DNA of 64,000 nucleotides from Streptomyces sp. 7-21. Lineage in GTDB: Bacteria; Actinomycetota; Actinomycetes; Streptomycetales; Streptomycetaceae. Below, one piece after another: positions 7,737 through 48,770 of this stretch (positions are counted from its first letter, which is position 1; every line of letters begins with the position of its first letter). Made by a program: the position numbers and the translations under genes. The DNA lies in the NCBI RefSeq assembly GCF_016741785.1, contig NZ_JAERRL010000001.1, positions 124,001 through 188,000 of the forward strand. The letters run 5' to 3'. The notes under the pieces were generated by a model, which saw only the letters and a list, made by a program, of their open reading frames with translations, did no database searches and was not told the DNA's origin.

Positions 7737-8706
7737 GGCCGGGCGCGGGCGCGCCGAGCACGGCGCCGAGCGCCGCGAGCACCTCCGCCGGGGTGATGCG
7801 CAGCAGCCGGGGGTCGGGGCGGGTGCCGTGGGGGTCGCCGGGACGCGGTGCGCGGCCGGCCGGGCCGGGATGCCACAGCACGCGGTGGCGCGCAGCGGCG
7901 GGCGGCCCCCACAGCCGCGGCGACACCGGGCCGAACAGCACCACCGACGGCGTGCCCAGGGCCGTGGCCAGATGCGCGATCCCGGTGTCGCCGACGACCA
8001 CGGCGCGCGCCGCCGCCACCAGGGCCGCCAGGCGCGGGAACGGCAGGCCGACGGCGGTGGTGACCTCCGGCCCCCGGCCGGCCAGGGCCGCGACCCGCCG
8101 CACCAGGTCCTCCTCGCCCGGCCCCCCGGTGACGGCCACGGGCAGCCCCGCCTGGCGCAGCGCGCCCCCGACCGCGCCGAAGCGCTCCGCCGGCCAGCGC
8201 CGCGCCCCCGCGTCCGCGCCCGGGTGGAGCACCACCGCGCCGGGCGCGGGGGAGCGGACGCCGGGCGGGGGCGCCAGCCGCAGGTCGCCCGGGTCGGCCG
8301 GGATGCCGTGCCAGGCCAGCAGGCGGCACCAGCGGTCCCGCTCGTGCTCGTCGGCCCGCCAGCGCGGCCCCGCCGGTGCCGCGTACGCCAGCAGGCGGCC
8401 GGGCCGCAGCGCCCGCAGCGGCGCGACGCTCGCGGGGCCGCTGCCGTGCAGGTCCACGGCCACCTCGGGCGGCCGGCCGTGCGGCCAGGGGAGCACCCCG
8501 GGCACGCCCCGGCCGGGTGCGGCGGCGGGCAGCAGCTCGTCCACGGCGCCGGTCGCCGCCGCGGCCTGGGCCAGCGCGGCGGGCGCCGCCAGCGCCAGCG
8601 TGTGCCCGGGGAACGCCCGCCGCAGCCCGCGCAGCGCGGGCACCGCCGTCAGCAGGTCGCCCAGGCCGAGCGCCCGCAGCACCAGGAGGCGGGGCCGGGC
8701 CGTCAC
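7720..8706 (-). CDS. glycosyltransferase family 9 (heptosyltransferase-like)
   Basis: 328 aa, GTG start at 8706 overlapping the hldE stop (GTGA). GT-B fold: N-terminal LLVLRALGLGDLLTAVPALR, middle VVLHPGADAGARRWP (GT9 phosphate-contact region), and VVVGDTGIAHLATALGTPSV with a conserved GDTG-AH motif, then LFGPVSPRLWGP. GT9 enzymes such as WaaC/WaaF transfer heptose from ADP-heptose to LPS core. In this Gram-positive context, directly downstream of hldE, the acceptor is more likely a cell-wall or secreted glycan. Last gene of the operon. Confidence 0.88.
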   Translation of the reverse strand: MTARPRLLVLRALGLGDLLTAVPALRGLRRAFPGHTLALAAPAALAQAAAATGAVDELLPAAAPGRGVPGVLPWPHGRPPEVAVDLHGSGPASVAPLRALRPGRLLAYAAPAGPRWRADEHERDRWCRLLAWHGIPADPGDLRLAPPPGVRSPAPGAVVLHPGADAGARRWPAERFGAVGGALRQAGLPVAVTGGPGEEDLVRRVAALAGRGPEVTTAVGLPFPRLAALVAAARAVVVGDTGIAHLATALGTPSVVLFGPVSPRLWGPPAAARHRVLWHPGPAGRAPRPGDPHGTRPDPRLLRITPAEVLAALGAVLGAPAPGPAAAA

Positions 8707-10154
8707 TGGTGGGCGCCGGCGGCGCGGCGGGCCAGCTCGGTGGTGGAGCGGCCGTCCAGGTAGGGCAGCACCAGGGTCTGCCCGCCCCACTCCCGCAGCG
8801 CGGCGGCCTCCGGCAGGTCCCGCACGCTGTAGTCGCCGCCCTTGACCCATACGTCCGGCCGCAGCCGCCGCAGCAGCCGCTCCGGGGTGTCCTCGTCGAA
8901 GACCGCCACGGCGTCCACGCAGCCCAGCCCGGCCAGCACCCGGATCCGGTCGGCGGCCGGGTTCAGCGGCCGGCCGCGCCCCTTCAGCCGCCGCACCGAG
9001 GCGTCGGAGTTGAGGCACACGATCAGGCAGTCGCCGGTGCGCCGGGCGTTCTCCAGGAACTGCACGTGCCCGGCGTGCAGCAGGTCGAAGCAGCCGCCGG
9101 CCGCGACGACCGTGCCGCCGCGCGCCCGCACCGCGTCCACCAGCGCCCGCGCGTCGCCGCCGTGGTGGCGCGGCGCGGCCGGCCCGCCGCCGTCGCGGCC
9201 GGCGGGCCCCTGCTGCCAGGCGGCGGCCGCACCGCCGCCCGCGACGAACGCGGAGGCCGCCTCGGTGGCCCGCCCCACTGCCTCCGGCGGCAGCCCGCCG
9301 TCGGCGAGCACCCCGGCGGCCGTGGCGGCGAAGCAGTCGCCCGCGCCGCACGGGTCGCCGTCGCTGGCCGCCGTCACCGGCACGTACAGCGGGTCGTCGC
9401 AGCGGGCGCGCGTCAGCACCGCGCCCCGCTCGCCCAGCGTCACCGCGACCGAGGCCGCCCGCCAGCTCTCGGCCAGCAGCGCGCCGCGCAGGCTGTGGGC
9501 GCGCAGCGTGGTGTCGTCGTCGGCGACCGGCAGGCGGGTGCCGGGGCGGCGCTCCGCCAGCTGGCGCAGGAACGCCGTGGTCTCCCGCTCGTTCGGGGTC
9601 ACCAGCCGCGCCCCCGGCACCGGCCGCCCGCCGCGCGGGTGCGGGTCCCACACCACCGGCACCCTGCGGGCCGCCTCCGCCAGCAGCGCCCGCACCGCCG
9701 CGACCGTGCCCTGCCCGTAGTCGGCGACCAGCACGGCGCGGGCGCCGAGCAGCGCCTCGCGCGCGGCGGCGCCGGGCGGGCCGGGGGTGCCGCCGCCGCT
9801 GTCCATCCGCACCACCGGCCGGCCGCCGGCCAGCACGCGCGACTTCACCGGCAGCGTGCCGTCCAGCGGCAGCGCCGCCAGCCGCACGCCCGGCGGCAGC
9901 AGGGCGCGGGCGGTCTCGCTCGCGCGGTCGGTGCCGAGCGCGGTGACGAGCACGACCTCGCGGCCGCCGCGCGCGGCGAGCGCGGCGGCGAGCCCGGCCC
10001 CGCCGGGGCGGGACCGCTCGCCCGAGACCGCGACGACGGGCACGGGCGCGTCGGGCGCGAGCCGGGTGGCGCCGCCCTCGACGTCCTGGTCGAGCAGCAG
10101 GTCGCCGACGACGGCGATGGGCTGCGGGGCGGACCCGCGGTCGGTGAGGGTCAT
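8703..10154 (-). CDS. hldE: bifunctional heptose-7-phosphate kinase / heptose-1-phosphate adenylyltransferase
   Basis: 483 aa, near the usual HldE length. Residues 1 to about 320 are a ribokinase-fold sugar kinase (VVGDLLLDQDVEG, ERSRPGGAGL, and the anion-hole/base motif GDPCGAGDCFAA). Residues about 345-483 are a nucleotidyltransferase (GGCFDLLHAGHVQFLENAR with the HxGH signature, WVKGGDYSVRDLPEA). It should phosphorylate D-glycero-D-manno-heptose 7-phosphate at C1 and, after GmhB removes the C7 phosphate, form ADP-heptose. It overlaps gmhA upstream and the GT9 gene downstream. The epimerase HldD is not seen in the window, so the product may stay as the D,D form. Confidence 0.92.
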   Translation of the reverse strand: MTLTDRGSAPQPIAVVGDLLLDQDVEGGATRLAPDAPVPVVAVSGERSRPGGAGLAAALAARGGREVVLVTALGTDRASETARALLPPGVRLAALPLDGTLPVKSRVLAGGRPVVRMDSGGGTPGPPGAAAREALLGARAVLVADYGQGTVAAVRALLAEAARRVPVVWDPHPRGGRPVPGARLVTPNERETTAFLRQLAERRPGTRLPVADDDTTLRAHSLRGALLAESWRAASVAVTLGERGAVLTRARCDDPLYVPVTAASDGDPCGAGDCFAATAAGVLADGGLPPEAVGRATEAASAFVAGGGAAAAWQQGPAGRDGGGPAAPRHHGGDARALVDAVRARGGTVVAAGGCFDLLHAGHVQFLENARRTGDCLIVCLNSDASVRRLKGRGRPLNPAADRIRVLAGLGCVDAVAVFDEDTPERLLRRLRPDVWVKGGDYSVRDLPEAAALREWGGQTLVLPYLDGRSTTELARRAAGAHQ

Positions 10155-10819
10155 GGCGCCTCCGTTCGGGACACGGCGGGGCGGGCGGGCCGGGCGGTGG
10201 GGCGCGCCGCCGCGGGCGTGCGCTCCGGCGCGCGGGTGGCGGCGAGCGCCTCGTCGAACGCCTCACACACCACGTGCACGGCCACCAGGTGCGTCTCCTG
10301 CACGGCCGCGGTGCTGGCCGCCTCGACGCTGAGCACGGCGTCCGCCTGCGCCGCCAGCGGGTTGGGCGCGGGTCCCGTGAGCGCCCACACCCGCACCCCG
10401 GCGGCGCGGGCGGCGGTCGCCGCGCCCAGCAGGTTGTCGCTGCGGCCGGACGTCGACAGCAGCATCAGCACGTCGCCGGGGCGGCCGTGCGCGGCGACCT
10501 GCCGGGCGAACACCTCGTCGAAGCCGTAGTCGTTGCCGATCGCGGTGACGCTGGAGGTCTCGGCGTGCAGCGCGAGGGCCGAGTACGGGCGCCGGTCGGC
10601 GGCGTAGCGGCCCACCAGCTCGGCCGTCAGGTGCTGCGCCTGCGCGGCGCTGCCCCCGTTGCCCGCCGCCAGCAGGCGGCCGCCCGCGGGCAGCACGCGG
10701 GCCAGCTCCCGCCCCCAGGCGGCGGCGTCCGCCAGGCCGTGCTGCTGGAAGCGCCGCAGCGCCTCCAGCAGCACGCGGCAGTGCTCCTCGGCGGCGGGCG
10801 TCGCGGCTGGGCGTCGCAT
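10151..10819 (-). CDS. gmhA: sedoheptulose-7-phosphate isomerase
   Basis: 222 aa. The ATG at 10819 has GAGGAG 6 nt upstream, preferred over the GTG 15 nt further out. SIS domain: AAGNGGSAAQAQHLTAELVG with the phosphate-binding Ser loop, AIGNDYGFDEVFARQV and LLSTSGRSDNLLGA, diagnostic of GmhA over other SIS proteins. It converts sedoheptulose 7-phosphate to D-glycero-D-manno-heptose 7-phosphate, the first step to ADP-heptose. A Pro/Ala/Arg-rich tail of about 25 residues is unusual. Overlaps hldE by 4 bp. Confidence 0.92.
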   Translation of the reverse strand: MRRPAATPAAEEHCRVLLEALRRFQQHGLADAAAWGRELARVLPAGGRLLAAGNGGSAAQAQHLTAELVGRYAADRRPYSALALHAETSSVTAIGNDYGFDEVFARQVAAHGRPGDVLMLLSTSGRSDNLLGAATAARAAGVRVWALTGPAPNPLAAQADAVLSVEAASTAAVQETHLVAVHVVCEAFDEALAATRAPERTPAAARPTARPARPAVSRTEAP

Positions 10820-10885
10820 GGCAGCTCCTCTCACGGGTCTCAGCGGGTTTCTCGCGGGTCTCGCCGGTCTCCGCCGGCCGGCGGC

Positions 10886-12142
10886 TCAGGCGGTGCCGCT
10901 GACGGGCGCGGGCCGCCGCGCGGCCAGGGCGCGGTAGACGTCCTCGGTGGCGGCCGCGACGTTCGCCCAGCGGTAGCGGGCCAGCACCCGCCGCCGCCCC
11001 GCCTCGCCGCGCGCGGCGCGCCCGGCCGGGTCGGCGAGCAGCGCGGCCGCGGCGCGCGCCAGCGCCTCCGGGTCGCGCGGCGGCACCAGGCGCCCGGTGA
11101 CCGGGTCGGCGACGGTGTCGCGCTGCCCGCCCACGGCGCTGGCGACCACCGGCACGCCGCAGGCCATGGCCTCCAGCGGCACGATGCCGAACGGCTCGTA
11201 GTCCGCCGGGCACAGCACCAGGTCGGCCGAGCGCAGCAGCGGCGGCACCTCCACCCGCGGCACGCCGCCCCGGAAGGTGACCCGGTCGGCCACGCCGTGG
11301 CGCCGCGCCGCCTCCCGCAGCCGCCGGATCTCCGGGTCGGCGGCCGGCGGCCCGGAGCGCGGCCCGCCCGCGATGACCAGTTCGGCGCCCGGCAGCCGGG
11401 CCAGCGCGGCGATGGACACCTCGGCGCCCTTGCGCGGCACCAGCCGGCCCAGCTGCACCAGCCGGTGCGGGTGCGGCCCGCGCGGCTCGGCCGGGCCGAC
11501 GGGCGTGAAGCGGCCGGTGTCGACGCCGCACGGCACGACGCTGACGCGGTGGACCGGCAGCCCCATGGCCGCCAGCTCGGCGACCTCGTCGCGGCAGGTG
11601 GCCACGATCCGGTCGCACGACAGCGCCACCCGCCGCTCGCAGGCGATGCGTTCGGGCGGGCTGGTGTCCGCCGCGCCCTGGTGGCGGCGCTTGACGGTGC
11701 CCAGGGCGTGGAAGGTGTGCGCGACCGGAATGCCCAGCGGCGCCGCCGCCTGGAGCGTGGCCAGGCCCGACATCCAGAAGTGGGAGTGCGCCACATCCGG
11801 CGGGTCGGCGGCCCACTCGCGGGCCAGCCAGGCGCCGAACCGCGGCATGTACGGCAGCAGCCGGTCCTTGGGCACGGGCGCGGGCGGCCCGGCGGGCACG
11901 TGCCGCACGGCGACGCCGTCGCGCAGCCGCACCGTGTCGGGCGGCTCGGGGGAGTCGCGCCGGGTGTAGACGGTCACGGCGTGGCCGCGGTCGGCCAGCG
12001 CCCCGGCGAGCTGCGCCACGTGCACGTTCTGCCCGCCGGCGTCCTCGCCGCCGAGCGCGGCCAGCGGGCTGGCGTGCTCGGACACCAGCGCGATGGCGAG
12101 CCCGTGCCGCGGCCGGTGGGCGGTCCTGCTCATCGGCGTCAT
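10886..12142 (-). CDS. glycosyltransferase family 4
   Basis: 418 aa; ATG at 12142 overlaps the upstream stop, with a second ATG at 12133. GT-B retaining enzyme: N-terminal VSEHASPLAALGGEDAGGQN (glycogen-synthase-like GG loop), HSHFWMSGLATL, then the C-terminal donor domain with VPCGVDTGRFTPVGP and the E-x7-E motif in YEPFGIVPLEAMACG. Resembles sucrose-phosphate-synthase/MshA-like GT4 enzymes, but context places it in glycan assembly. 66 bp separates it from gmhA. Confidence 0.88.
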   Translation of the reverse strand: MTPMSRTAHRPRHGLAIALVSEHASPLAALGGEDAGGQNVHVAQLAGALADRGHAVTVYTRRDSPEPPDTVRLRDGVAVRHVPAGPPAPVPKDRLLPYMPRFGAWLAREWAADPPDVAHSHFWMSGLATLQAAAPLGIPVAHTFHALGTVKRRHQGAADTSPPERIACERRVALSCDRIVATCRDEVAELAAMGLPVHRVSVVPCGVDTGRFTPVGPAEPRGPHPHRLVQLGRLVPRKGAEVSIAALARLPGAELVIAGGPRSGPPAADPEIRRLREAARRHGVADRVTFRGGVPRVEVPPLLRSADLVLCPADYEPFGIVPLEAMACGVPVVASAVGGQRDTVADPVTGRLVPPRDPEALARAAAALLADPAGRAARGEAGRRRVLARYRWANVAAATEDVYRALAARRPAPVSGTA

Positions 12143-13107
12143 CGGCGGATTACCTCCTCCAGCAGCAGGTCCCAGTCGGCGAGGAAGCGCTTGAGGCCGT
12201 AGCGTTCGAGCGCGGCCTGCCGCGCCGCCAGGCCCGCCTCGAACGCCGCGTCGGGGTCCCGCAGGAACGCGGCGGCGGCGCGGGCGAGCCGCTCCGGCCG
12301 CGTGGACAGCGTCCCGGCCTCGCGGGGCACGGCCTCGACGGCCTCGGTGGTGGCCAGGGCGACGACGGGCATGCCCAGGTGCATGGCCTCGATCAGGGAC
12401 AGGCCCAGCGAGGTCCAGCGCACCGGGTGCAGGTACAGGCGGCGCCGGGCCATGGCCTGGTGCAGCTCGTGCTGCGGCAGGTCCACGGCGCGGCAGCGGT
12501 CCGGGGGCAGCCCGAGGTGCGCGGCCAGGCCGCCGGTGCCCATGCCGAAGACGTCCAGCGGGGCGGCCAGCGCCAGGCCGGGCAGCAGGTCGGTGCCGGT
12601 GGTGCGGCCGCGCCGCAGCGGCTCGTTGACGACGACGGCGGCGCGTTCCAGCTCCCCGGTGTAGCGGTGGCCGGGGTCCACGACGCCGTGCTCGACGACG
12701 GCGGTGGGGGTGGTGCCGCTGTCCCAGAACAGCCGGTTGAAGTGCGTGACGTGCACCAGCAGCAGGTCGTCGCGGTCGGCGGCCGGGTGCCGGGCGTGCG
12801 GCACCGGCCCGTCCGGCGCGTTGTGCTCGAGGTACACGGCGGGCACGTCCCGCCCGGGGCGGCGCCCGCCGAGCCAGCGCTCGGCCAGCCGGGCCTCGTG
12901 CGGGCGCTGGAGCACCACGACGTCCACGTGCTCCTCCCGCAGCTGCGCGGGCGTCACCTCGCGGGCGCTGGCGGGCCAGTCCCAGGTGCGGGCCCGGCCC
13001 AGGCCGTCGGGGCCGCGGCCGGGCAGCACCGGGATCAGGTAGGTGTGGGGCCCCTGGACGAACGCGGTGGTCCACGAGCCGTGCACGTGCCAGATCAGGA
13101 TGTTCAT
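12139..13107 (-). CDS. glycosyltransferase (GT-B fold)
   Basis: 322 aa, ATG at 13107, coupled to genes on both sides by 4-bp overlaps. Starts MNILIWHVHGSWTTAFVQGPH; the middle has YLEHNAPDGP; the C-terminal donor half has HPVRWTSLGLSLIEAMHLGM, the E-containing loop of GT4-like transferases. Homologous genes are found next to the same SIS/hldE genes in other streptomycetes, as far as I recall. Substrate not predictable. Confidence 0.82.
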   Translation of the reverse strand: MNILIWHVHGSWTTAFVQGPHTYLIPVLPGRGPDGLGRARTWDWPASAREVTPAQLREEHVDVVVLQRPHEARLAERWLGGRRPGRDVPAVYLEHNAPDGPVPHARHPAADRDDLLLVHVTHFNRLFWDSGTTPTAVVEHGVVDPGHRYTGELERAAVVVNEPLRRGRTTGTDLLPGLALAAPLDVFGMGTGGLAAHLGLPPDRCRAVDLPQHELHQAMARRRLYLHPVRWTSLGLSLIEAMHLGMPVVALATTEAVEAVPREAGTLSTRPERLARAAAAFLRDPDAAFEAGLAARQAALERYGLKRFLADWDLLLEEVIRR

Positions 13108-14156
13108 GCGGGCGCCTTCCGGCTGGCGGTGCCGCGCAGCCGCCCCGGCGCGGTGAGCGCGGCGACGGCCGACAGCACCTCCTCGTCGGTGATGGAGTCC
13201 AGGCAGGGATGGCCCGCCACCGGGCACATCCGGGCGCGCGTCCCGGCGCACGGCGTGTCCTGGCGGCCGAGCCGCAGGTGCGGCACGCGGTACGGCAGCC
13301 AGCGGTCGGCGCTGACCACGGGCGCGAACAGGCTGATGACGGGCGTGCGCACGGCCGCCGCCAGGTGGGCGGGGCCGGTGTTGCCCGCGATCACGACGCG
13401 GGCGCCGGCCAGCACCCCGGCCAGCTCGGCCATGCCGGTCCGGCCGCCGAGGTCCAGCGCGTGCTCCCCGGCGACCCGGGCGGTGAGGGCCTCCTCGCCG
13501 GGTCCGCCGGTCACCACCACGCGGTGCCCGGCCCGGGCCAGGGCCGCCACCGCGGCCGCCGCCCGCGCGGGCGTCCAGGTGCGGGCGGGCACGGCCGCGC
13601 CCGGGTGCACCACCAGGTACGGCTCCGGGCCGGTGAGCGCGGTGGCGTCCGGGCAGGACCGCACGCGCAGCGCGCCGCCGTCGCCGGGCGGCAGCGTGTA
13701 CCCGGCCGCCTCGGCCAGCTCCAGCGCGGCGGCGGCCTCGTGCCGGTAGGGCGCGCGGCGGTGGCGCAGCTGGAGCAGCGAGCCGGGGTAGTGCTCGCTG
13801 TCGGCCGCCACCCACGGCACGCCCGCCATCTTCAGCAGCAGCGCGGCGGGCAGCGGGCTCTGGTGGTGCGAGGCGAAGATCAGGGCCCGGTCGTACCGCC
13901 CGGCGGCCAGGCGGTCGACCAGCTCGTTGACGGACTCGCGCCGCAGCGCCGGCGGCGACAGGCTCACCCACGGCGCGTCGTAGACGGCGATGTCGTCGAC
14001 GCCGGGCAGCAGCCGGGCCGCGGCCTCGCCGCGCGGGCCGCACAGCAGCGTGACGTGCGAGGACCCGGCGGCGACCGCCCGGATCGCGGGCCCGGCCAGC
14101 AGCACGTCACCGGCGCTGTCCAGCCGGACGACGAGGGTGCGCGGGGAACGGGTCAT
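13104..14156 (-). CDS. glycosyltransferase family 9 (ADP-heptose:acceptor heptosyltransferase-like)
   Basis: 350 aa, ATG at 14156. N-terminal LVVRLDSAGDVLLAGPAIRA (the conserved GD contact), YLVVHPGAAVPARTWTP, then VVIAGNTGPAHLAAAVRTPV with the GNTG-AH donor motif and LFAPVVSADRW. Near the end DTPCAGTRARMCPVAGHPCL contains three Cys. Second GT9 in the operon, so at least two heptose additions are plausible. Overlaps both neighbours by 4 bp. Confidence 0.9.
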   Translation of the reverse strand: MTRSPRTLVVRLDSAGDVLLAGPAIRAVAAGSSHVTLLCGPRGEAAARLLPGVDDIAVYDAPWVSLSPPALRRESVNELVDRLAAGRYDRALIFASHHQSPLPAALLLKMAGVPWVAADSEHYPGSLLQLRHRRAPYRHEAAAALELAEAAGYTLPPGDGGALRVRSCPDATALTGPEPYLVVHPGAAVPARTWTPARAAAAVAALARAGHRVVVTGGPGEEALTARVAGEHALDLGGRTGMAELAGVLAGARVVIAGNTGPAHLAAAVRTPVISLFAPVVSADRWLPYRVPHLRLGRQDTPCAGTRARMCPVAGHPCLDSITDEEVLSAVAALTAPGRLRGTASRKAPA

Positions 14157-14815
14157 GCCGGGTCACCTCCGCCGGAGCCGCCCAGCGTGCCGTCGAGCAC
14201 GCCGCGCACCGCCGCCAGCAGGTCGGGGGCCCACCGGCCGGCGGTGCGGGCGGCGCGTATCTCGCCGGCGCGGGTGGCGGGCGCGGGCACCAGCACCCCG
14301 CGCGCCCCGGCGGCGCGGGCGGCGGCCTGGTCGGCGGCGATGTCGCCGATCACGACGGTGCGGTGCGGCGGCACGCCCAGCCGCGCGCAGGCCGCCAGCA
14401 CCAGCCCGGGGGCGGGCTTGCGGCAGGCGCAGCCGTCGTCCTCGGCGTGCGGGCAGACCGCCCACACGCCGAAGCCGCCGAGGAGCTCCTCGGCGCGCCG
14501 CCGCACCGCGTCGACGTCCGCGCGGGTCAGCAGGCCGCGCGCCACGCCCGACTGGTTGCTGACGACGCCGGTGGCCACGCCGCGGGCCCGCAGCAGCCGC
14601 AGCGCGGCGGCGGCGCGGGGGACGGGCCGCACCCGGGCCGGGTCGCCGTTGTACGGCACGTCGTGCACGAGCGTCCCGTCGCGGTCGAAGAGCACGGCCG
14701 CGGGCGCCGGAGCCGGCGGCGGCGGGCCCGCCCGGCGGACGGACGGGCCGGTGGCGGGGAAGATCCACGGCCCGTCCGCCCGGCGGGCGCCCCGCCGCGG
14801 ACCAGTCAATGACAT
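14153..14815 (-). CDS. gmhB: D-glycero-D-manno-heptose-1,7-bisphosphate 7-phosphatase-like HAD-IIIA protein
   Basis: 220 aa from ATG 14815; an ATG at 14830 is also possible. The first 35 residues are Pro/Arg-rich. The HAD-IIIA core follows: AVLFDRDGTLVHD (nucleophile and acid Asp), VVSNQSGVARGLL, the Cys/His zinc loop CPHAEDDGCACRKPAPGL characteristic of GmhB/histidinol-phosphatase enzymes, and VVIGDIAADQAAARAAG. It should remove the C7 phosphate of heptose 1,7-bisphosphate between the two HldE steps. Located in the same operon as gmhA and hldE. Confidence 0.85.
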   Translation of the reverse strand: MSLTGPRRGARRADGPWIFPATGPSVRRAGPPPPAPAPAAVLFDRDGTLVHDVPYNGDPARVRPVPRAAAALRLLRARGVATGVVSNQSGVARGLLTRADVDAVRRRAEELLGGFGVWAVCPHAEDDGCACRKPAPGLVLAACARLGVPPHRTVVIGDIAADQAAARAAGARGVLVPAPATRAGEIRAARTAGRWAPDLLAAVRGVLDGTLGGSGGGDPA

Positions 14816-14837
14816 AGTGCGATAAGTCATATACGAG

Positions 14838-15902
14838 TTAGTTGCCCGATATGGCCGGATCAAACGGATCCGGAGGGGACAGTTCCGCACCGGCCGGGTC
14901 CGCATCGCAGCCCGTCCCGACCCGCTCCACCCCCCGGTGCACGACCTGCCCGGCCAGCCAGTACGCCGTCGCCACCGGCGGGATCGCCACGCTGCTGAGC
15001 ACCATCCGGCGCACCTCATCCGCCGTGCGCGGGCCCGGCCAGATCCGCGCCAGCGCGAACTCCGCCGTCCCCGCCGCCCACGCCGCCGCGCACCCCGCCG
15101 CCAGCCGCGGCCGGTGCGCCGCCGCCGCGCCCAGCGCCGCCACGGCCGCCGCCGTCACCGCCAGGTGGCCGGGCAGCCGCCCCCGCGGCGCCTGCGCCCG
15201 CCGCCACCAGCGGCGGCCGTGCAGCCGCGCCATCAGCACGTCGTCGGCGTTCCCCGCCTGGCCGCGCACCGACACCCAGTCATCCGCCGGGCGCACCGGA
15301 TGCGTCGTGCGCCGCTCACCCATCGCGAGCGTCCACCCGGCCGCGCTCACCCGCAGCGCCAGGTCGGCGTCCTCCCGGAATGCCCGCGGGAACCGCTCGT
15401 CGAAGCCGCCGACCGCCTCCAGTGCCGCGCGCCGGTACGCCATGTCGGCCGTAATCCACCGGGCCGTCGCCAGCCCCGCCGTGGTCCGCTCCCAGTCCGT
15501 CGGCCGCCGGTCCTCCGGCAACGGCACCATGATCCGGCCCTGGATGCCGCCCGTGCCGTCGTCCGCCAGCGCCAGGTCCGCCGACAGCGCCGCCGCCCAC
15601 GCCGGGCCCGGCACCACGTCGTCGTCGAGGAACGCGATCCACGGCTCCGGCGCCCGCCGCCACCCCGTGTTCCGGGCGGCGGCCGGGCCCGCGCCCCGCC
15701 CCGGCACCACCTCCACCAGGTCCGCCAGCTCGTCGGGCACCCACACCACCAGCGGCGAGGGGTCACGCGGCGGCCGGTCGTCCACGATCACAATCCGCCG
15801 GGGCCGCGGCCCCGACCCCGCCGCCAGCGCCTCCAGCAGCCGCGACAGGCTCGGCCGCCCCAGCGTCGGGATCACCACGGCGTAGGGCACCGGCGCGCTC
15901 AT
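14838..15902 (-). CDS. membrane-associated family 2 glycosyltransferase
   Basis: 354 aa, ATG at 15902 overlapping the carbamoyltransferase stop. GT-A core in residues 1 to about 230: YAVVIPTLGRPSLSRLLEAL, IVIVDDRPPRD, AFLDDDVVPGPAW (metal site), FPRAFREDADLALRVSAAGW. The last 110 residues hold Ala/Leu-rich hydrophobic segments, probably two or three membrane helices. Likely a lipid-linked or membrane-proximal sugar addition step. Confidence 0.87.
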   Translation of the reverse strand: MSAPVPYAVVIPTLGRPSLSRLLEALAAGSGPRPRRIVIVDDRPPRDPSPLVVWVPDELADLVEVVPGRGAGPAAARNTGWRRAPEPWIAFLDDDVVPGPAWAAALSADLALADDGTGGIQGRIMVPLPEDRRPTDWERTTAGLATARWITADMAYRRAALEAVGGFDERFPRAFREDADLALRVSAAGWTLAMGERRTTHPVRPADDWVSVRGQAGNADDVLMARLHGRRWWRRAQAPRGRLPGHLAVTAAAVAALGAAAAHRPRLAAGCAAAWAAGTAEFALARIWPGPRTADEVRRMVLSSVAIPPVATAYWLAGQVVHRGVERVGTGCDADPAGAELSPPDPFDPAISGN

Positions 15903-17572
15903 CGGCCCGCCTCCCGTCCCCCGCCGCCGCCCGGCAGGAACTCCTGCCGCCGCACCAGGAACGGGCCCATCGCCAGCACGTCCACGGGCGCCGAGCCGAA
16001 GCACTCCAGCGCGTCCCGGGGATCGTCCACCATCGGCCGGCCCGCCGTGTTCAGGCTGGTGTTGACCACCACCGGCAGGCCCGTCAGCTGCTCGAACCGC
16101 GCCAGCATCCGCGCCACCAGCGGCTCCGCCGCCGCGTCGACCGTCTGGATCCGCGCCGTGCCGTCCACGTGCACCACGGCCGGTATCCGCTCCCGCCACT
16201 GCGGCCGCACGTCGTGCACGAACAGCATGTACGGGCTCGGCAGCGGCCCGTCGAAGATCTCCGCCGCCCGCTCCGCCAGCACCATCGGCGCCACCGGGCG
16301 GAACTGCTCGCGCCCCTTGATGTCGTTCAGCCGCTCCAGGTTCCCCGACCGGCCCGGGTGCGCCAGCAGCGACCGGTGCCCCAGCGCGCGCGGCCCGTAC
16401 TCGGCGCGGCCCTGGAACCACGCGACCACCGCGTTGCCCGCCAGCGCCTCCGCCACCGCCTCCGCCACGTCGGGCGGCCGCTCGAACGGCACCGCCGCCG
16501 TCTTCAGCCACGCCTCCAGCTCCGCGTCCGACCAGCCGCGCCCCAGGTCCGTGCCGGGCGGCGGCAGCGCGGGCGCCGGATCCTGCTCGGCCGCGTGCAG
16601 CATCGCCCCGCCCAGCGCCGTGCCCGCGTCGCCCGAGGCGGGCTGCACCCACACCCGGTCGAACGGGCCCTCGCGCGCGATCCGGGAGTTGGCCACGCAG
16701 TTGAGCGCCACGCCGCCCGCCATCGTCAGCACCCGGTCGTGCGTGCGGCCGTGCAGCCACCGCACCAGGTCCAGCAGCACCTCCTCCAGCACCGCCTGCG
16801 CGCTCGCCGCCAGGTCCGCGTGGCGCTGCCCCCACGCCTGGCCGGGGCGGCGCGGCTCGCACAGCTGCGCCCACGGCACCCCGGAGGCGTGGAAGCCGCC
16901 GTCACCGGTCGGGTAGACGTAGCGCCGCAGCTCCGGCAGGAACCGCGGCGTGCCGTACGACGCCAGCGCCATCACCTTGTACTCGTCGCTGGAGCGCAGG
17001 AACCCCAGGTGCTCGGTCAGCTCCTCGTACACCAGGCCCAGCGACTGCGGCAGCTCCTGCCCGGCCAGCGGCTCGAGCTCCTGCCCGCCGCGCCGCGCCG
17101 CCAGGTGCGACGTCGCCTCGCCCCGGCCGTCCAGCACCAGCACCGAGGCGCGCTCGGCGTCCGGCGCGGCGAAGGCGGCGGACGCGGCGTGCGCCATGTG
17201 GTGCGGCACGAACCGGACGATGCCGGGGTCGAGCCCGGGCAGCGCGCTCGCCAGGAACCGCGGCGCCTCCCAGGCGTAGGTCTGCCGCAGGTGGTCCCAC
17301 GGGTCGTGCAGCCCCATCTCCCGGGCCTGCCGGGCCAGCGACGGGTCGTAGGAGTAGGTGACAGCGTCCAGGTCCTCCGGCCGCAGCCCCGCCTGGCCCA
17401 GGCACCAGGCCGCCGCCCGCTCCGGCAGCTCCCAGGCGGCGAACGGCACCGGCCGCTTGCCGTGCTTGCGGCGGCTGAACCGTTCCTCCTCGGCGGCGGC
17501 GACGGTGCGGCCGTCGATGACGAGCGCCGCCGCCGGATCGTGGAACAGGGCGTTGATACCAAGGACACGCAT
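15899..17572 (-). CDS. carbamoyltransferase (CmcH/NodU/TobZ family)
   Basis: 557 aa, usual family length. ATG at 17572 has GGAGG about 5 nt upstream. N-terminal Kae1-like domain (residues 1 to about 350): LGINALFHDPAAALVIDG, VPHHMAHAASAAFAA with metal-binding His, LDGRGEATS, and AGGVALNCVANSRI. C-terminal YrdC-like domain: WFQGRAEYGPRALGHRSLLA and LPVVVNTSLNTAGRPM. It uses carbamoyl phosphate and ATP to O-carbamoylate a sugar. First enzyme of the tightly overlapped glycan block, so the glycan is probably carbamoylated. Confidence 0.93.
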   Translation of the reverse strand: MRVLGINALFHDPAAALVIDGRTVAAAEEERFSRRKHGKRPVPFAAWELPERAAAWCLGQAGLRPEDLDAVTYSYDPSLARQAREMGLHDPWDHLRQTYAWEAPRFLASALPGLDPGIVRFVPHHMAHAASAAFAAPDAERASVLVLDGRGEATSHLAARRGGQELEPLAGQELPQSLGLVYEELTEHLGFLRSSDEYKVMALASYGTPRFLPELRRYVYPTGDGGFHASGVPWAQLCEPRRPGQAWGQRHADLAASAQAVLEEVLLDLVRWLHGRTHDRVLTMAGGVALNCVANSRIAREGPFDRVWVQPASGDAGTALGGAMLHAAEQDPAPALPPPGTDLGRGWSDAELEAWLKTAAVPFERPPDVAEAVAEALAGNAVVAWFQGRAEYGPRALGHRSLLAHPGRSGNLERLNDIKGREQFRPVAPMVLAERAAEIFDGPLPSPYMLFVHDVRPQWRERIPAVVHVDGTARIQTVDAAAEPLVARMLARFEQLTGLPVVVNTSLNTAGRPMVDDPRDALECFGSAPVDVLAMGPFLVRRQEFLPGGGGGREAGR

Positions 17573-17635
17573 GGGGCCTCCAGCGGGCAGACCGGGATTC
17601 GGGATCGGAGAACGGAAGGTCACTGAGCGGGGAGC

Positions 17636-17695
17636 GGAAAGAGGAGAGATAAGGAGAGATAAGGAGAGAGAGGAAGGACAGAGGAAGGGAGACAC
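17636..17695 (-). repeat. pyrimidine-rich 10-bp repeats in the leader of the carbamoyltransferase gene
   Basis: The plus strand has GGAGAGATAA twice in tandem (17643-17662) followed by a third partial unit, within a purine-only tract. The minus-strand transcript would carry a CU-rich leader here, in the 133-bp gap between two cluster genes. Confidence 0.6.
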
Positions 17696-17705
17696 CCGGG
17701 GCGGA

Positions 17706-18647
17706 TCAGCCCCCGGTCTCGCGGAACCAGGCCACCGTCGCGGCGAGCCCCTCCTCGGCCGGGACCCGCGGCTCCCACTGGAGCTTGCCGCGCGCCAGCG
17801 TGATGTCCGGGCAGCGCACGTGCGGATCGTCCGTGGGCCGCTCCACCATCCGCACCGGCGAGCGCGAGCCCGTCAGCCGCAGCACGGTGTGCGCCAGGTC
17901 GAGCATCGTGATCTCCACCGGGTTCCCGAGGTTCACCGGCCCGCGCAGCTCCGAGCCCGCCATCGCGAGGATCCCGCGCACCGTGTCCTCGACGTACGTC
18001 AGCGACCGGGTCTGCCGCCCGTCGCCCGTCACCGTCAGCGGCTCGCCCGCCAGCGCCTGGCGGATGAACGTCGGCACCGCCCGGCCGTCGTAGCCGCGCA
18101 TCCGCGGGCCGTAGGTGTTGAACAGCCGCACGATGCCGGTGTCGGTGCCGTGGACGGCCGCCTCCGCCGTGGTCAGCGCCTCGGCGAAGCGTTTCGCCTC
18201 GTCGTACACGCTGCGCGGGCCGACCGGGTTCACGTTCCCCCAGTACGTCTCCGGCTGCGGATGCTGGAGCGGGTCACCGTAGACCTCCGAGGTGGACGCC
18301 AGCAGGAACCGCGCGCCGTCGCGCCGCGCCAGCGCCAGCGCGTTCCGCGTGCCGAGGCTGCCGGTGTCCAGCGTGTGCAGCGGCATCCGCAGGTAGTCGG
18401 CGGGGGAGGCGGGCGAGGCCAGGTGCAGCACCAGATCCGCGGGCCGCCCCGGCTCGAACGGCTCGCTCACATCCGCCCGCAGCATCGTGAAGCCCGGCCG
18501 GTCCCGCAGGTGGGCCACGTTCCCGCTCCGCCCCGTGCTCAGGTCGTCCACGCAGGTCACGGCCGTGCCCTCATCGAGCAGGGCCGCGCACACATGCGAG
18601 CCGAGAAACCCGGCTCCCCCCGTCACGACGGCGTGCCGGAAACGCAT
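17706..18647 (-). CDS. NAD-dependent nucleotide-sugar epimerase/decarboxylase (UDP-glucuronate decarboxylase-like)
   Basis: 313 aa. Extended SDR: VTGGAGFLGSHVC (NAD-binding Gly motif, residues 8-20), LHLASPASPADYL, STSEVYGDP, the catalytic pair in SVYDEAKRFAE (YxxxK), FNTYGPRMR and VEDTVRGI. The SPASPADY and GDP-x-HPQ-E pattern is that of UDP-xylose synthases. It would supply UDP-xylose or a related sugar to the glycan cluster. It begins the minus-strand operon and has a perfect SigB-type promoter about 45 bp upstream. Confidence 0.88.
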   Translation of the reverse strand: MRFRHAVVTGGAGFLGSHVCAALLDEGTAVTCVDDLSTGRSGNVAHLRDRPGFTMLRADVSEPFEPGRPADLVLHLASPASPADYLRMPLHTLDTGSLGTRNALALARRDGARFLLASTSEVYGDPLQHPQPETYWGNVNPVGPRSVYDEAKRFAEALTTAEAAVHGTDTGIVRLFNTYGPRMRGYDGRAVPTFIRQALAGEPLTVTGDGRQTRSLTYVEDTVRGILAMAGSELRGPVNLGNPVEITMLDLAHTVLRLTGSRSPVRMVERPTDDPHVRCPDITLARGKLQWEPRVPAEEGLAATVAWFRETGG

Positions 18648-18691
18648 CGGGGTCTCCCTTCGTCGGTCGGCTCACGCACAACGGCACCCAA

Positions 18692-18716
18692 GTACCCCGG
18701 CCAAACGGCACAAAAC
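18692..18716 (-). promoter_or_regulatory. SigB-type promoter for the glycan operon
   Basis: On the minus strand: GTTT (18716-18713), 15-nt spacer, GGGTAC (18697-18692). This matches the streptomycete SigB-family consensus GNNT-N14-16-GGGTAY exactly. Predicted start near 18685, about 38 nt before the ATG at 18647. Confidence 0.7.
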
Positions 18717-18752
18717 GCATAAACGAAGCAATTGCCTACGGTCCGTGGCGCC

Positions 18753-18777
18753 GTTTCGGCCCCGGCCGCCCGGGTAC
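18753..18777 (+). promoter_or_regulatory. SigB-type promoter for the epimerase gene
   Basis: GTTT (18753-18756), 15-nt spacer, GGGTAC (18772-18777); exact consensus match, back to back with the minus-strand site. Predicted start near 18785, leaving a 30-nt leader that contains the GGGAGG ribosome-binding site of the gene at 18815. Confidence 0.7.
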
Positions 18778-18814
18778 CTGGCAAGCCCAGCCGCCGCCGA
18801 CCGGGAGGGTGCCG

Positions 18815-19936
18815 ATGCCCACGCCGAACTCCCCCGAGCCCGACCCGCCCACCGGACCCGGCGCGACCGCCAGCGGCAAACGCGTCGTCATCACCGGCGC
18901 CACCGGCAACGTCGGCAGCGCCCTGGTACGCGCGCTGGCCCTCGACCCCGAGGTCGCCTCCGTGCTCGGCCTGGCACGCCGCGTCCCCCACTGGACCATC
19001 GCCAAGACCACATGGGCCCCCGTCGACCTGCGTGACGGCGACGCCACCGCCACCCTCACCCGGTACTTCCGCGACGCCGACGCCGTCGTCCACCTCGCCT
19101 GGATGATCCAGCCCGCCCGCGACCCGGTCATGACCTGGCGCACCAACGTCCTCGGCACCACCCGCGTGCTGCGCGCCGTCGCCGAGGCCCAGGTGCCCGC
19201 CCTGCTGTACGCCTCGTCCGTCGGCGCCTACTCCCCGGGCCCGCAGGACCGCGCCGTCACCGAGAACTGGCCCACCCACGGCTGGCCCGAAGCGTCCTAC
19301 ACCCGCGAAAAGGCGTACGTCGAACGCCTGCTGGACGCCTTCGAGCCGCGCCACCCCGGCACGCGCGTGGTGCGGCTGCGGCCCGGCTTCATCTTCTCCC
19401 GCGAGGCCGCCTCCGCCCAGCGCCGCCTCTTCCTCGGCCCGCTCGTCTTCGGCCCCCTGGTGCGGCCTGAGCGCAGCCCCGTCGTGCCCGACGTGCCCGG
19501 CCTGCGCGTCCAGGTGATCCGCGCCTCCGACGCCGCCGAGGCGTACCGCCGCGCCCTGCACGCCCCGGTCACCGGCGCGTTCAACATCGCGGCCGACCCC
19601 GTCGTCGACGCCGCGCTCCTGGGGCGCCTGTTCGACGCCCGGCCCGTCCGCGTGCCGCGCCCGCTGCTGCGCACCGCCCTAGCCGCCGCCTACGGCGCCC
19701 ACCTCGCCCCGGCGCAGCCCGAGCTGTTCGACGCCCTGATGCGGCTGCCCGTCATGGACTGCTCCCGCGCCGCCGCCGAACTCGGCTGGCGGCCCGCGTT
19801 CAGCGCCGAACGCGCCCTGCGCGACCTGGTGCACGGGCTGCGCGAGGGCACCGGCATGGACACCCCGCCGCTGGCCGCCCGGCTGCGGCACGGCCGCCTC
19901 AGCGAGTTCGCCACCGGCATCGGGCAACGGCCGTAA
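18815..19936 (+). CDS. NAD-dependent epimerase/dehydratase family protein (extended SDR)
   Basis: 373 aa. ATG at 18815 lies 6 nt after GGAGG; a GTG at 18809 is too close. After about 22 disordered residues comes VVITGATGNVGSALVRAL, then AVVHLAWMIQPARDP, LLYASSVGAYSPGP and YTREKAYVERLLDAFEP (YxxxK). The C-terminus ends with GMDTPPLAARLR. Substrate unknown. A paralogue with the same architecture and the same TPPL tail lies at 49487-50560. Runs from its own SigB-type promoter and is followed by two more oxidoreductases on the same strand. Confidence 0.88.
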   Translation: MPTPNSPEPDPPTGPGATASGKRVVITGATGNVGSALVRALALDPEVASVLGLARRVPHWTIAKTTWAPVDLRDGDATATLTRYFRDADAVVHLAWMIQPARDPVMTWRTNVLGTTRVLRAVAEAQVPALLYASSVGAYSPGPQDRAVTENWPTHGWPEASYTREKAYVERLLDAFEPRHPGTRVVRLRPGFIFSREAASAQRRLFLGPLVFGPLVRPERSPVVPDVPGLRVQVIRASDAAEAYRRALHAPVTGAFNIAADPVVDAALLGRLFDARPVRVPRPLLRTALAAAYGAHLAPAQPELFDALMRLPVMDCSRAAAELGWRPAFSAERALRDLVHGLREGTGMDTPPLAARLRHGRLSEFATGIGQRP

Positions 19937-19988: not shown

Positions 19989-20948
19989 ATGACCCGATAC
20001 GGCTACTTCCTCGCCAGCGAGGACCACGGCCCGCGCGCCCTCGCCGAACAGGCCCGCATGGCTGAACAGGCCGGCTTCGAGGCGCTGTGGATCTCCGACC
20101 ACTACCACCCGTGGCTCGACACCCAGGGCCACAGCCCGTTCGTGTGGACCACCATCGGCGCGCTGGCCCAGGCCAGTTCACTGCCGGTGCAGACCGCCGT
20201 GACCTGCCCCACGGTGCGGATCCACCCCGCCGTGCTGGCCCAGGCCGCGGCGACCAGCGGCGTGCTGCACGAGGGCCGCTTCCGGCTCGGCGTCGGCTCC
20301 GGCGAGGCGCTCAACGAGCACATCCTCGGCACCGCCTGGCCGCGCGCCGCCGTGCGGCTGGAGATGCTGGAAGAAGCCGTCGGCATCATCCGCCGCCTGC
20401 TGACCGGCGAACGCGTCAGCCACCGCGGCCGCTACTACACCGTCGAGAACGCCCGCCTGTACACCGTCCCCGACGAGCCCGTGCCCATCGACGTCTCCGC
20501 CTACGGGCCCGCCTCAGCGGACGTCGCCGCCCGCATCGGCGACGGCTTCGTCACCATGGGCCCCGAAGGCGGCCTGCTGCGCCGCTACCGCGACCACGGC
20601 GGCGGCGCACGGCGCACCTCCTGCGGCACCAAGGTCTGCTACGACACCGACCGCGACCGCGCGGTGCGCACCGTCCACCACCGCTGGCCCACCATGCTGC
20701 TCCCCGGCGAGCTCGCCGCCCAGCTCCCGGAACCGGCGCACTTCGCCCAGGCCACCCAGCTCATCACCGAAGACCACGTCCGCAGCGGCCCGTTCGCCCT
20801 CGGCGCCGACCCCGACGAACACGTCCGGGCCCTGACGGCGTGCGCCGAGGCGGGCTTCGACTACGTCTACGTCAACCAGATCGGCGAGGACATGCGCGGC
20901 TTTTTCGACCTGTACCGCACCAAGGTCCTCCCGCAACTGCCCCGCTGA
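19989..20948 (+). CDS. F420-dependent LLM-class oxidoreductase (G6PDH-like family)
   Basis: 319 aa, ATG at 19989 after ACGGAGGGAC. Luciferase-like TIM barrel: YGYFLASEDHGPRALAEQAR at the start, ALWISDHYHPWLDTQGHSPF (the coenzyme-F420 binding His/Asp region of the FGD-like family), LGVGSGEALNEHILG, and a C-terminal GFDYVYVNQIGEDMRGFFDL. Related to F420-dependent glucose-6-phosphate dehydrogenase, but the natural substrate of most family members is unknown. 52 bp after the epimerase and 12 bp before the SDR: probably one transcript. Confidence 0.9.
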   Translation: MTRYGYFLASEDHGPRALAEQARMAEQAGFEALWISDHYHPWLDTQGHSPFVWTTIGALAQASSLPVQTAVTCPTVRIHPAVLAQAAATSGVLHEGRFRLGVGSGEALNEHILGTAWPRAAVRLEMLEEAVGIIRRLLTGERVSHRGRYYTVENARLYTVPDEPVPIDVSAYGPASADVAARIGDGFVTMGPEGGLLRRYRDHGGGARRTSCGTKVCYDTDRDRAVRTVHHRWPTMLLPGELAAQLPEPAHFAQATQLITEDHVRSGPFALGADPDEHVRALTACAEAGFDYVYVNQIGEDMRGFFDLYRTKVLPQLPR

Positions 20949-20960: not shown

Positions 20961-21830
20961 ATGTCCGACCGCCCCCAGCAGCCGCACCCGCGACCGGAGT
21001 TCCCCTCCCAGTCGCAGCCCACCCCCGGCGGCACCGGGGAGATGTCGCCGCGCCCCGACCACGGCGAGGACTCCTACACCGGCTGCGGCAGGCTCCGCGA
21101 CCGGCGGACCGTCATCACCGGCGGCGACTCCGGCATCGGCCGCGCCGTCGCCCTCGCTTTCGCCCGCGAAGGCGCCGACGTGCTGTTCACGTACCTGCCG
21201 GAGGAGGAGTCCGACGCCGAGGAGACCGCCCGCCTGGTGCGCGACGCGGGCCGCCGTGCCGTCGCCGTGGCCTGCGACGTGCGCGAGGAGACGGAGTGCC
21301 AGCGGCTGACGGACCACGCCATCGCCGAGTTCGGGCGGGTCGACGTGCTGGTGAACAACGCCGCCTTCCAGATGTCCCAGCCCCAGGGCATCGAGGCGAT
21401 CACCACCGAGCAGCTGGACCGGGTCATCCGCACCAACCTGTACGGCATGTTCTGGCTGTGCCGCATGACGCTGCCCCATATCCCCGAAGGCGGCAGCATC
21501 ATCAACACCACGTCCGTGCAAGGCTTCCAGCCCCGCCCGCATCTGCTGGACTACGCCATGACCAAGGGCGCCATCGCCACCTTCACCCAGGGCCTGGCCG
21601 CCCAGGTCGCCGAGCGCGGCATCCGCGTCAACGCCGTCGCGCCCGGCCCGGTGTGGACGCCGCTGATCCCGGCCACGATGCCGGACACCTCGAAGTTCGG
21701 CGCCAACACGGCCTTCGGCCGCCCGGCCCAGCCCGCCGAGATGGCCCCCGCCTACGTTTTCCTCGCTTCGCCCGGGGCGTCCTTCATCACCGCCGAGATC
21801 GTCAACGCCACGGGCGGCGCGCCGCTGTGA
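20961..21830 (+). CDS. short-chain dehydrogenase (YghA-like)
   Basis: 289 aa. A 45-residue N-terminal extension rich in Pro/Gln ends with RPDHGEDSYTGCGRL, as in the YghA/general-stress SDR group. Classical SDR core: VITGGDSGIGRAVALAFA, LVNNAAFQMSQ, INTTSVQGFQP, YAMTKGAI (YxxxK) and RVNAVAPGPVWTPLIP. Members are often stress-induced aldehyde/ketone reductases, which fits the SigB-type promoter upstream of this gene group. Confidence 0.9.
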   Translation: MSDRPQQPHPRPEFPSQSQPTPGGTGEMSPRPDHGEDSYTGCGRLRDRRTVITGGDSGIGRAVALAFAREGADVLFTYLPEEESDAEETARLVRDAGRRAVAVACDVREETECQRLTDHAIAEFGRVDVLVNNAAFQMSQPQGIEAITTEQLDRVIRTNLYGMFWLCRMTLPHIPEGGSIINTTSVQGFQPRPHLLDYAMTKGAIATFTQGLAAQVAERGIRVNAVAPGPVWTPLIPATMPDTSKFGANTAFGRPAQPAEMAPAYVFLASPGASFITAEIVNATGGAPL

Positions 21831-24499: not shown

Positions 24500-25309
24500 T
24501 CATAGCTTGCGAATCTTTGTCAGGCAGGCCCGAACTACATCTCTGAGCTGTTCATCTGTCATATCGTCCTCGTCTCGCAAAGATGGATCGATGGTGTAGC
24601 TGTCGTCTATTGCATAAAATAGCTCATCCAGGAAATGCAGGATCGCAAACGTCAGCATCTCCCTTTGATCAATCGCCTGACTGCGGTTGTTCAACCATTG
24701 CCGAGCAAAGGCTGCTCCCTCGATGCGACCGTGTATGAAATCTTCCATCAGTTGGAGCTGTTTTCCGGTGGAGCTATCCGGTGGGACTTCGCTTGCTGTT
24801 CTCCAGGACCGCTTACGCGGAGCATATTCCCGCGCAACTTCAAATAGTTTTGCAGAGTTTGTAGGATGCGTTCCGGCATAGTGCTCGAAGTCTTCTCGAG
24901 GGTAATCGACTCCAAATGAATCTACGCCCTTCATGAATTCCTCTACTCCAGCAATGAGCGCATAATCCATTCCGCTGATAAACATGCCCGCACTGAGGTC
25001 TGCGGTGGCAATCAGCACGTCTTTTTTGAGACTTTCGGTGTGCCGAAAGAGCTCTTCTATTGTCGCGTAAATCACGACGTCTGTGGAAATCCGTTCCGAA
25101 CTTGACAATCGTACTTTCCCGACCAAGAGATCTTCGCATCCAATGCTTCGGCATCCATATTCGAGGTATCTCATAAGTTTTGCATTAATCCCGCCCGGAG
25201 CTGGATATGGCGCGCATGCTTTTGCATCCATAGCAAGCCAGGACGAATTGAAGAGTCCACTCTGATTTAGGATTTTTTTGTACTGTTCGATGATTACCTT
25301 TTGTGCCAT
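24500..25309 (-). CDS. colicin-D-type immunity protein paralogue 3
   Basis: 269 aa from ATG 25309; a GTG at 25318 overlaps a relic toxin stop codon. The frame stays open to 25450, but that upstream part is relic toxin tail and immunity sequence read out of frame. N-terminal domain: YKKILNQSGLFNSSWLAMDA; C-terminal immunity domain: LMEDFIHGRIEGAAFARQWL ... DEDDMTDEQLRDVVRACL. Over an 84-residue central block (SLKKDVLIAT to TASEVP) it differs from paralogue 4 at only two positions, while the first 95 residues differ much more. Confidence 0.83.
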   Translation of the reverse strand: MAQKVIIEQYKKILNQSGLFNSSWLAMDAKACAPYPAPGGINAKLMRYLEYGCRSIGCEDLLVGKVRLSSSERISTDVVIYATIEELFRHTESLKKDVLIATADLSAGMFISGMDYALIAGVEEFMKGVDSFGVDYPREDFEHYAGTHPTNSAKLFEVAREYAPRKRSWRTASEVPPDSSTGKQLQLMEDFIHGRIEGAAFARQWLNNRSQAIDQREMLTFAILHFLDELFYAIDDSYTIDPSLRDEDDMTDEQLRDVVRACLTKIRKL

Positions 25310-47945: not shown

Positions 47946-48770
47946 TCAGCCGGACGCGCGCTCGCCGGCGTCGCCGGCCGTGCCGTCCACCGCCTCCCGC
48001 ACCCGCGCGCAGGCGCGGGCCAGCAGCCGGGAGACGTGCATCTGCGAGATGCCCAGGTGCGCGGCGATGCGGCTCTGGGTCATGCCGCGGAAGAAACGCA
48101 GGTAGAGGATCTGCCGCTCCCGCTCGGGCAGGTCGCGCAGCGGGTCGCGGACGGACTCGCGGTCCACGACCTGGTCGTAGGCCGGCTCGTTGCCGCCGAG
48201 CGCGTCCTTCAGGCAGTAGTCGCCGTCGGTGCCGGGCAGGCCGGCCTCCAGCGACAGCGGGCTGAAGCACTCCATGGCGGCGAGGCCGGTGCGGACCTCG
48301 TCCTCGCTCAGGCCGCTGTGGCGGGCGAGCTGGCCGATGTCGGGCGGCCGTTCGTCGACGCGGCAGTCGAGCTGGCGGACGCTGGCGCGCACCCGGTTGC
48401 GCAGCTCCTGGGTGTGGCGGGGCACGTGGACGCCCCAGACGTGGTCGCGGAAGTGCCGCTTGACCTCGCCGGTGATCGTCGGCACCGCGTAGCTCTCGAA
48501 GGCCCGGCCGCGGTGCGGGTCGAACCGGTGGACCGCCTTGACCAGTCCCAGCGCGGCCACCTGCTCCAGGTCCTCCAGCGACTCGCCGCGGTCACGGAAG
48601 GTGCGGGCGAGCCGCCCGGCCATCGGCATCCACGCGCGGACCACGTCCTCGTAGAGCCGGTCCCGCTCGCGGCAGGGCGGCAGCTGCGCGATGCGCGCGA
48701 ACTGGCGGCTGGTGTCGGGTGCGTCGTGATGGGGGTGACGCCTGGGGCGCCGATGTGTGGGTGTGTTCAT
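47946..48770 (-). CDS. SigB/SigF-family stress sigma factor
   Basis: 274 aa; ATG at 48770 with GGGAGAG upstream. Region 2: RDRLYEDVVRAWMPMAGRLA, GESLEDLEQVAALGLVKAVH, RFDPHRGRAFESYAVPTITG. Region 3: RPPDIGQLARHSGLSEDEVR. Region 4: LPERERQILYLRFFRGMTQS then RIAAHLGISQMHVSRLLARA. Members respond to osmotic and other stress and recognise GNNT-N14-16-GGGTAY, which occurs at several genes in this window. No anti-sigma or anti-anti-sigma gene is adjacent. Confidence 0.93.
   Translation of the reverse strand: MNTPTHRRPRRHPHHDAPDTSRQFARIAQLPPCRERDRLYEDVVRAWMPMAGRLARTFRDRGESLEDLEQVAALGLVKAVHRFDPHRGRAFESYAVPTITGEVKRHFRDHVWGVHVPRHTQELRNRVRASVRQLDCRVDERPPDIGQLARHSGLSEDEVRTGLAAMECFSPLSLEAGLPGTDGDYCLKDALGGNEPAYDQVVDRESVRDPLRDLPERERQILYLRFFRGMTQSRIAAHLGISQMHVSRLLARACARVREAVDGTAGDAGERASG

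Follow-up and report, generated by a model that had tools for sequence, protein, structure and literature searches.

Evidence for two outward-facing SigB-type promoters between a glycan operon and an oxidoreductase operon in Streptomyces sp. 7-21

The short gap between a putative heptose-type glycan operon and a divergent oxidoreductase operon of Streptomyces sp. 7-21 very probably holds two real, conserved promoters of the SigB class, each facing outward. That there are two SigB-family promoters here, one per operon, had been proposed in an earlier note on this DNA, and the proposal is well supported by the sequence and by conservation in five relatives. Such a pair belongs to a known promoter class and is a sound but fairly ordinary form of gene control, through which synthesis of an unusual sugar coat is probably coupled to stress in this case.

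The probable promoter pair and the two operons

Within the window, by which we mean the whole stretch of 64,000 nucleotides that was analysed, the gap, its two predicted promoters and the genes on either side were annotated as follows.

18648..18814, intergenic region of 167 bp between divergent start codons
18692..18716, minus strand, predicted SigB-type promoter of the glycan operon (-35 GTTT 18713-18716, -10 GGGTAC 18692-18697, 15-nt spacer)
18753..18777, plus strand, predicted SigB-type promoter of the oxidoreductase operon (-35 GTTT 18753-18756, -10 GGGTAC 18772-18777, 15-nt spacer)
17706..18647, minus strand, epi, NAD-dependent sugar epimerase/dehydratase, gene 1 of the glycan operon (Pfam PF01370)
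15899..17695, minus strand, carb, NodU-like carbamoyltransferase (Pfam PF02543/PF16861; NodU model below cut-off)
14838..15885, minus strand, family-2 glycosyltransferase (Pfam PF00535; start approximate, ORF open further upstream)
14153..15019, minus strand, HAD phosphatase, GmhB-like (longest ORF; domain from about residue 108, true start possibly further in; GmhB models below cut-off)
13104..14156, minus strand, family-9 (heptosyltransferase-type) glycosyltransferase (Pfam PF01075)
10886..12040, minus strand, family-4 glycosyltransferase (start approximate)
10151..10834, minus strand, SIS-domain isomerase, GmhA-like (below GmhA cut-off)
8703..10154, minus strand, HldE-like kinase/adenylyltransferase (TIGR02199 189.7 bits, cut-off 181.5; kinase half below cut-off)
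18815..19936, plus strand, nad, NAD(P)-binding epimerase/reductase family protein, gene 1 of the oxidoreductase operon
19989..20948, plus strand, F420-dependent LLM-class oxidoreductase (TIGR03557 454 bits, cut-off 210.4)
20961..21830, plus strand, SDR oxidoreductase

Both GTTT-N15-GGGTAC sites of the gap face outward. The minus-strand site lies 44 nt ahead of the epi ATG (18645-18647) with a predicted start point at about 18684-18686, and the plus-strand site 37 nt ahead of the nad ATG at 18815, which is preceded by the ribosome site GGGAGGG, with a predicted start point at about 18783-18785. The earlier note had the positions, the outward orientation and the 167-bp gap right, the exact motif occupying 18692-18716 on the minus and 18753-18777 on the plus strand. 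It had also called the promoters perfect, and both boxes are indeed exact, with GTTT each for the -35 element GNNT (best form GTTT), GGGTAC each for the -10 element GGGTAY and N15 each for the spacing of N14-16; perfect is nevertheless a relative term, the published Streptomyces SigB-class consensus being GNNT-N14-16-GGGTAY (Lee et al. 2004, as quoted in PMC5402319).

The same GTTT/GNNT -35 box, GGGTAY -10 box and spacing characterize the 24 SigB-family promoters mapped in S. coelicolor, as given in Table 2 of PMC8346170. One entry of that table, SCO1089p (GTTT-N15-GGGTAT), is identical to the gap sites in the frame GTTT-N15-GGGTA and is described there as driving an operon that includes a putative oxidoreductase; the paper also names four cell-wall biogenesis genes as SigB-dependent. 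In contrast to the mapped S. coelicolor promoters, the two described here stand back to back in one gap and are predicted from sequence. The two boxes are also those of the B. subtilis SigB promoter Pctc, quoted in PMC8346170 as GTTTAA-N14-GGGTAT and stated there (data not shown in that paper) to be active with all nine S. coelicolor homologues, although the -35 box of the gap sites continues with CG or TG and not with AA. Counted after a six-base -35 element, the spacing of the gap sites is 13, which falls within the quoted N12-14. Matching boxes do not guarantee induction by osmotic stress: according to section 2.3 of PMC8346170, the mapped promoter SCO3557p was not observed in vivo in osmotically stressed S. 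coelicolor. A GTTT-N16-GGGTAC site that is one base off SCO3557p, as listed in that paper, is present in the genome studied here (G000:C2:23754-23779, L063), about 360 bp before a 370-aa ORF.

Outward-facing exact GTTT-N15-GGGTAC pairs like that of the gap were found twice on contig C13 of another Streptomyces genome, G067 (L163), at 43848/43881 and 46096/46155, so this locus is not the only one with such an arrangement. These two pairs (43848-43905 and 46096-46179), with 8 and 34 bp between their sites, lie within 2.3 kb of DNA and 16-18 kb from the nad gene of G067, and their downstream genes differ from those considered here, as they stand beside carboxylate-amine-ligase-like and ferritin-like-looking genes (names assigned by eye). 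A limited literature search covering an ADP-heptose operon in Streptomyces, divergent SigB promoters and SigB together with an NAD-dependent epimerase found nothing on this system.

Read from its gene set, the minus-strand operon would make a heptose-type glycan, and all glycan genes presumably belong to one transcript. We use the label 'heptose-type' only, because the adenylyltransferase domain of HldE is the one heptose model above its curated cut-off; GmhA (156.1 vs 209.45), GmhB (53.5 vs 149.6) and the HldE kinase (109.9 vs 345) all score below theirs.

Conservation in relatives and the candidate sigma factors

Both gene sets occur together in five relatives, namely S. hoynatensis (G210; L034, L130), Streptomyces sp. 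SBT349 (G723; L035) and the genomes G145 (L067, L129), G710 (L096, L126) and G369 (L098, L123), which were compared with our strain as a clade of six species. On the glycan side GTTT-N15/16-GGGTAC-TTGG is present in all six, the spacer being 15 in five species and 16 in one; all four -35 columns, all six -10 columns and the next four bases TTGG are invariant, compared with 1 of 15 spacer columns. The redox side has GTKT-N15/16-GGGTAC in 6/6 species, with GTTT in two and GTGT in four and with N15 and N16 in three each, and here the invariant columns number 6/6 for the -10 box, 3/4 for the -35 box and 0/15 for the spacer. Within the clade, conservation is stronger at the glycan-side site than at the redox-side one. 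The earlier note had stated that its proposal would be refuted if close relatives sharing the gene order had lost the hexamers; such a loss was looked for and did not turn up, the hexamers being kept in all six species.

The geometry of the pair is far less stable. In the five species with facing genes the gap between the two -35 boxes measures 36, 4, 17, 3 and 16 bp, the 4 bp belonging to S. hoynatensis and the 3 bp to G145. In G369 it is the SDR gene that the glycan operon faces, with nad about 4.8 kb away, and the two promoters precede genes that have the SDR gene between them; where it faces epi, the SDR gene shows no GNNT-N14-16-GGGTAY of its own. A single bidirectional element of fixed geometry was therefore rejected, and the retention of the boxes while spacers and inter-promoter distance drift is what two independently maintained promoters would show. 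The gene content of the redox side varies as well: the F420-dependent LLM gene is present in our strain, G710 and G369 and was not found in the stretches retrieved for S. hoynatensis, SBT349 and G145, and about 1.9-2 kb of other DNA precede the SDR gene in G710, SBT349 and G145.

The window also encodes a candidate for the sigma factor that reads these promoters.

47946..48770, minus strand, SigB/SigF/SigG-family sigma factor (TIGR02980 252.3 bits, cut-off 234.35)

Its ORF is open to 48944, the conserved start being the ATG at 48770 as judged from the G710 and G145 sequences. We regard this protein as a plausible partner of the two promoters. In the sigma tree, which was midpoint-rooted and gave a long-branch warning for one outgroup row, it forms one group of six (96/93) with the copies of G710, SBT349, G145, S. 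hoynatensis and G369, and its best match lies about 0.2 kb from the cluster SDR gene in G710, 0.6 kb in SBT349 and 2.4 kb in G145.

We see an even chance, though, that the promoters are of the SigB type and are read by another of the family members of this genome, of which there are six besides the window sigma factor, the latter being a mere neighbour. Such a reading is compatible with the two-promoter explanation and contests only the link to the gene at 47946-48770 that the earlier note had drawn. Seven SigB/F/G-family genes of our strain score above the curated cut-off and the window gene scores lowest among them; about 26 kb separate it from the SDR gene, and its orthologue is unlinked in S. 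hoynatensis (C20) and G369 (C11), where the promoters persist. Moreover, another member of the SigB family is encoded on the glycan side of the cluster in four of the six genomes, at a distance of 33 kb in our strain (G000:C1:108678-109352, L056), 19 kb in G710 (C1:1092178), 32 kb in G145 (C4:68806) and 29 kb in S. hoynatensis (C2:100522), so there may be a sigma gene on either side of the cluster; the sigma tree does not decide whether these second genes share a common descent. In S. coelicolor almost all of the 24 mapped promoters are read by at least two of the nine homologues, for which the account in PMC8346170 gives no distinguishing sequence feature, and given such overlapping use sequence cannot decide which sigma factor acts. 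What favours the window gene over the six other family members is its phylogenetic grouping with the three orthologues that sit within 0.2-2.4 kb of the SDR gene. The proposed link is thus supported in part, by gene order in three of five relatives, and weakened by the two unlinked cases, by the distance in our strain and by the number of competing family members.

Beside the sigma gene of the window, where a partner-switch anti-sigma factor might be expected, the neighbours scanned are genes for a P450, for a protein with DUF2267 and for one resembling epimerases. On the side of the sigma gene that faces away from the SDR gene, G710 and G145 share with the window the genes for the last two of these proteins, the epimerase-like one having 51 and 53% identity to nad. 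A sequence GTTTCC-N14-GGATAC at 48886-48911, with a weight-matrix score of 14.76, faces the DUF2267 gene and is divergent from the sigma gene; it was dropped as a SigB-type promoter of the DUF2267 gene, the corresponding gaps of G710 and G145 having no clear counterpart. Between the redox operon and the sigma gene, the region 24500-31115 is, judged from its domains, a polymorphic toxin locus in which the immunity gene is duplicated: an RHS-repeat protein of 1565 aa (26418-31115, minus strand) carries a T7SS secretion signal and a colicin-D domain, and after it come two ORFs, at 25600-26565 and 24500-25450 on the minus strand, that encode colicin-immunity domains. The toxin-bearing stretch between the SDR and sigma genes is probably a later insertion.

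Upstream regions across Streptomyces and motif frequency

In order to compare the glycan side outside the clade, 36 epi orthologues (L005-L015, L097, L099-L122) were used whose fetched 1.5-kb flank holds neither nad nor the cluster SDR gene. Within 300 bp of the aligned start the loose motif GNNT-N14-16-GGGTAY was present in two of them (L100, L108) and absent in the other 34, showing that the glycan-side promoter is not general. The difference from the clade (6/6 vs 2/36) gives a Fisher p = 5e-6 with relatedness ignored, and in the epi tree of 42 rows the six bearers of the GTTT promoter form one group (94/84). The genome G067, which is not part of the set of 36, has an epi gene of 68% identity about 1.3 kb from its nad; this nad has an exact promoter, and no such motif was found upstream of the epi gene. 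Among the 42 epi genes examined, the GTTT-type glycan-side promoter is found in one clade only.

The redox side gives another picture. A gene matching nad at E <= 1e-60 is present in 235/392 genomes of the genus, and we examined 31 upstream regions, comprising 29 of the 30 best-matching loci (our own excluded) together with L035 and L043. Within 250 bp of the aligned nad start GGGTAC occurs on the sense strand in 23/31 and on the antisense strand in 8/31, at least three of the latter being the divergent glycan promoters of L035, L067 and L068. For 120 permuted hexamers the median was 2/31, and GGGTAC ranks top among the 960 hexamers with two A/T. The fuller pattern GNNT-N14-16-GGGTAY was found in 14 sense and 4 antisense cases out of 31. 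Four of the upstream regions (L035, L067, L068, L070) belong to the six-species clade and all four have a sense GGGTAC, which is absent from the sense strand in 8 of the 31. GGGTAC frequently continues as TCGG in these upstream regions, as in L069, L073, L081, L084, L087 and L095, and several of these lack GTTT at the -35 distance, which suggests a promoter sub-type. From these comparisons, the promoter of the redox side appears to be old and widespread, and that of the glycan side peculiar to one clade.

The wider retention of the nad promoter and the 34 motif-free epi upstream regions would also fit a situation in which stress acts through the redox-side promoter alone, the glycan boxes being weak or silent and the glycan operon driven mainly from elsewhere. 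In S. hoynatensis and G145, moreover, the -35 boxes lie so close together that two polymerases would probably hinder each other. We nevertheless consider this unlikely, as GTTT, GGGTAC and TTGG on the glycan side do not vary in any species of the clade and as a search of 18500-18950 with a simple E. coli-style consensus, which is not a Streptomyces promoter model, found no sigma-70-type alternative.

Very unlikely, in our view, is a role of GGGTAC as the site of a DNA-binding regulator instead of a -10 box. The palindromic GGTACC at 18773-18778 and the frequent continuation into TCGG upstream of nad orthologues could be taken in this sense, but GTTT or GNNT stands at promoter distance, the hexamer has a strand bias (23 sense and 8 antisense cases), and each copy in the gap is a leader's length away from its start codon.

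The counts show how far the motif itself can be trusted. GTTT-N13-17-GGGTAC has two matches in the whole window, both in the gap, where 0.04 are expected, and exact GTTT-N15-GGGTAC has three in the 4.81-Mb genome (58 contigs), two of them within the gap. The form GTTT-N14-16-GGGTAY gives six matches in our genome, again two of them in the gap, vs three for the reversed control. Of the other four, one is the site close to SCO3557p mentioned above, one is found some 195 bp ahead of a universal-stress-like ORF, one close to the probable start of a Rieske-like ORF, the longest frame of which overruns the motif, and one in a 16S rRNA region (the last three names read from the sequence). Across 61 Streptomyces genomes the exact motif occurs 101 times vs 98 for the reversed control, and the idea that it marks promoters genome-wide was rejected for this lack of excess. 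A weight matrix built from the 24 mapped S. coelicolor promoters ranks the gap sites 4th and 5th in the window, three others scoring higher, and is too tolerant for ranking sites. A single match carries no weight by itself, and it is the pairing of the sites, their orientation and their conservation that speak for promoters. When the gap was shuffled 200,000 times with dinucleotides preserved, the exact motif appeared on the plus strand in 25 cases, on the minus strand in 193 and on both in none, and the loose GNNT-N14-16-GGGTAY was found on both strands in 87. Functionless chance matches in GC-rich DNA, to which the background rate of single matches might point, are the least probable reading of all and were rejected for the pair, given these shuffles and the conservation of the boxes in five relatives with diverged spacers.

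A possibly stress-responsive promoter pair and its meaning

According to the two-promoter explanation, RNA polymerase with one or more of the seven SigB-family sigma factors would start both transcripts once such a factor is freed by osmotic, oxidative or developmental signals, so that the heptose-type glycan operon and the redox operon with its NAD epimerase-like, F420-dependent LLM and SDR enzymes would rise together. The redox promoter would be the older one, and that of the glycan operon would have been gained in one clade. More tentatively, the SigB-family sigma factor, the old redox set and the heptose-type carbamoylated glycan operon could be one inherited stress module with the sigma gene beside its own targets, in which the glycan operon gained its SigB promoter on coming beside the redox operon and in which the surface glycan and the F420/NAD redox enzymes are remodelled together.

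In summary, two well-supported members are added to the SigB-type promoter class of Streptomyces, and the nad family looks like a conserved member of the stress regulon. If the glycan operon is truly induced by stress, the locus would offer a testable case of a Gram-positive bacterium making a heptose-type surface sugar on demand as well as of a neighbouring sigma factor recruiting a target operon.
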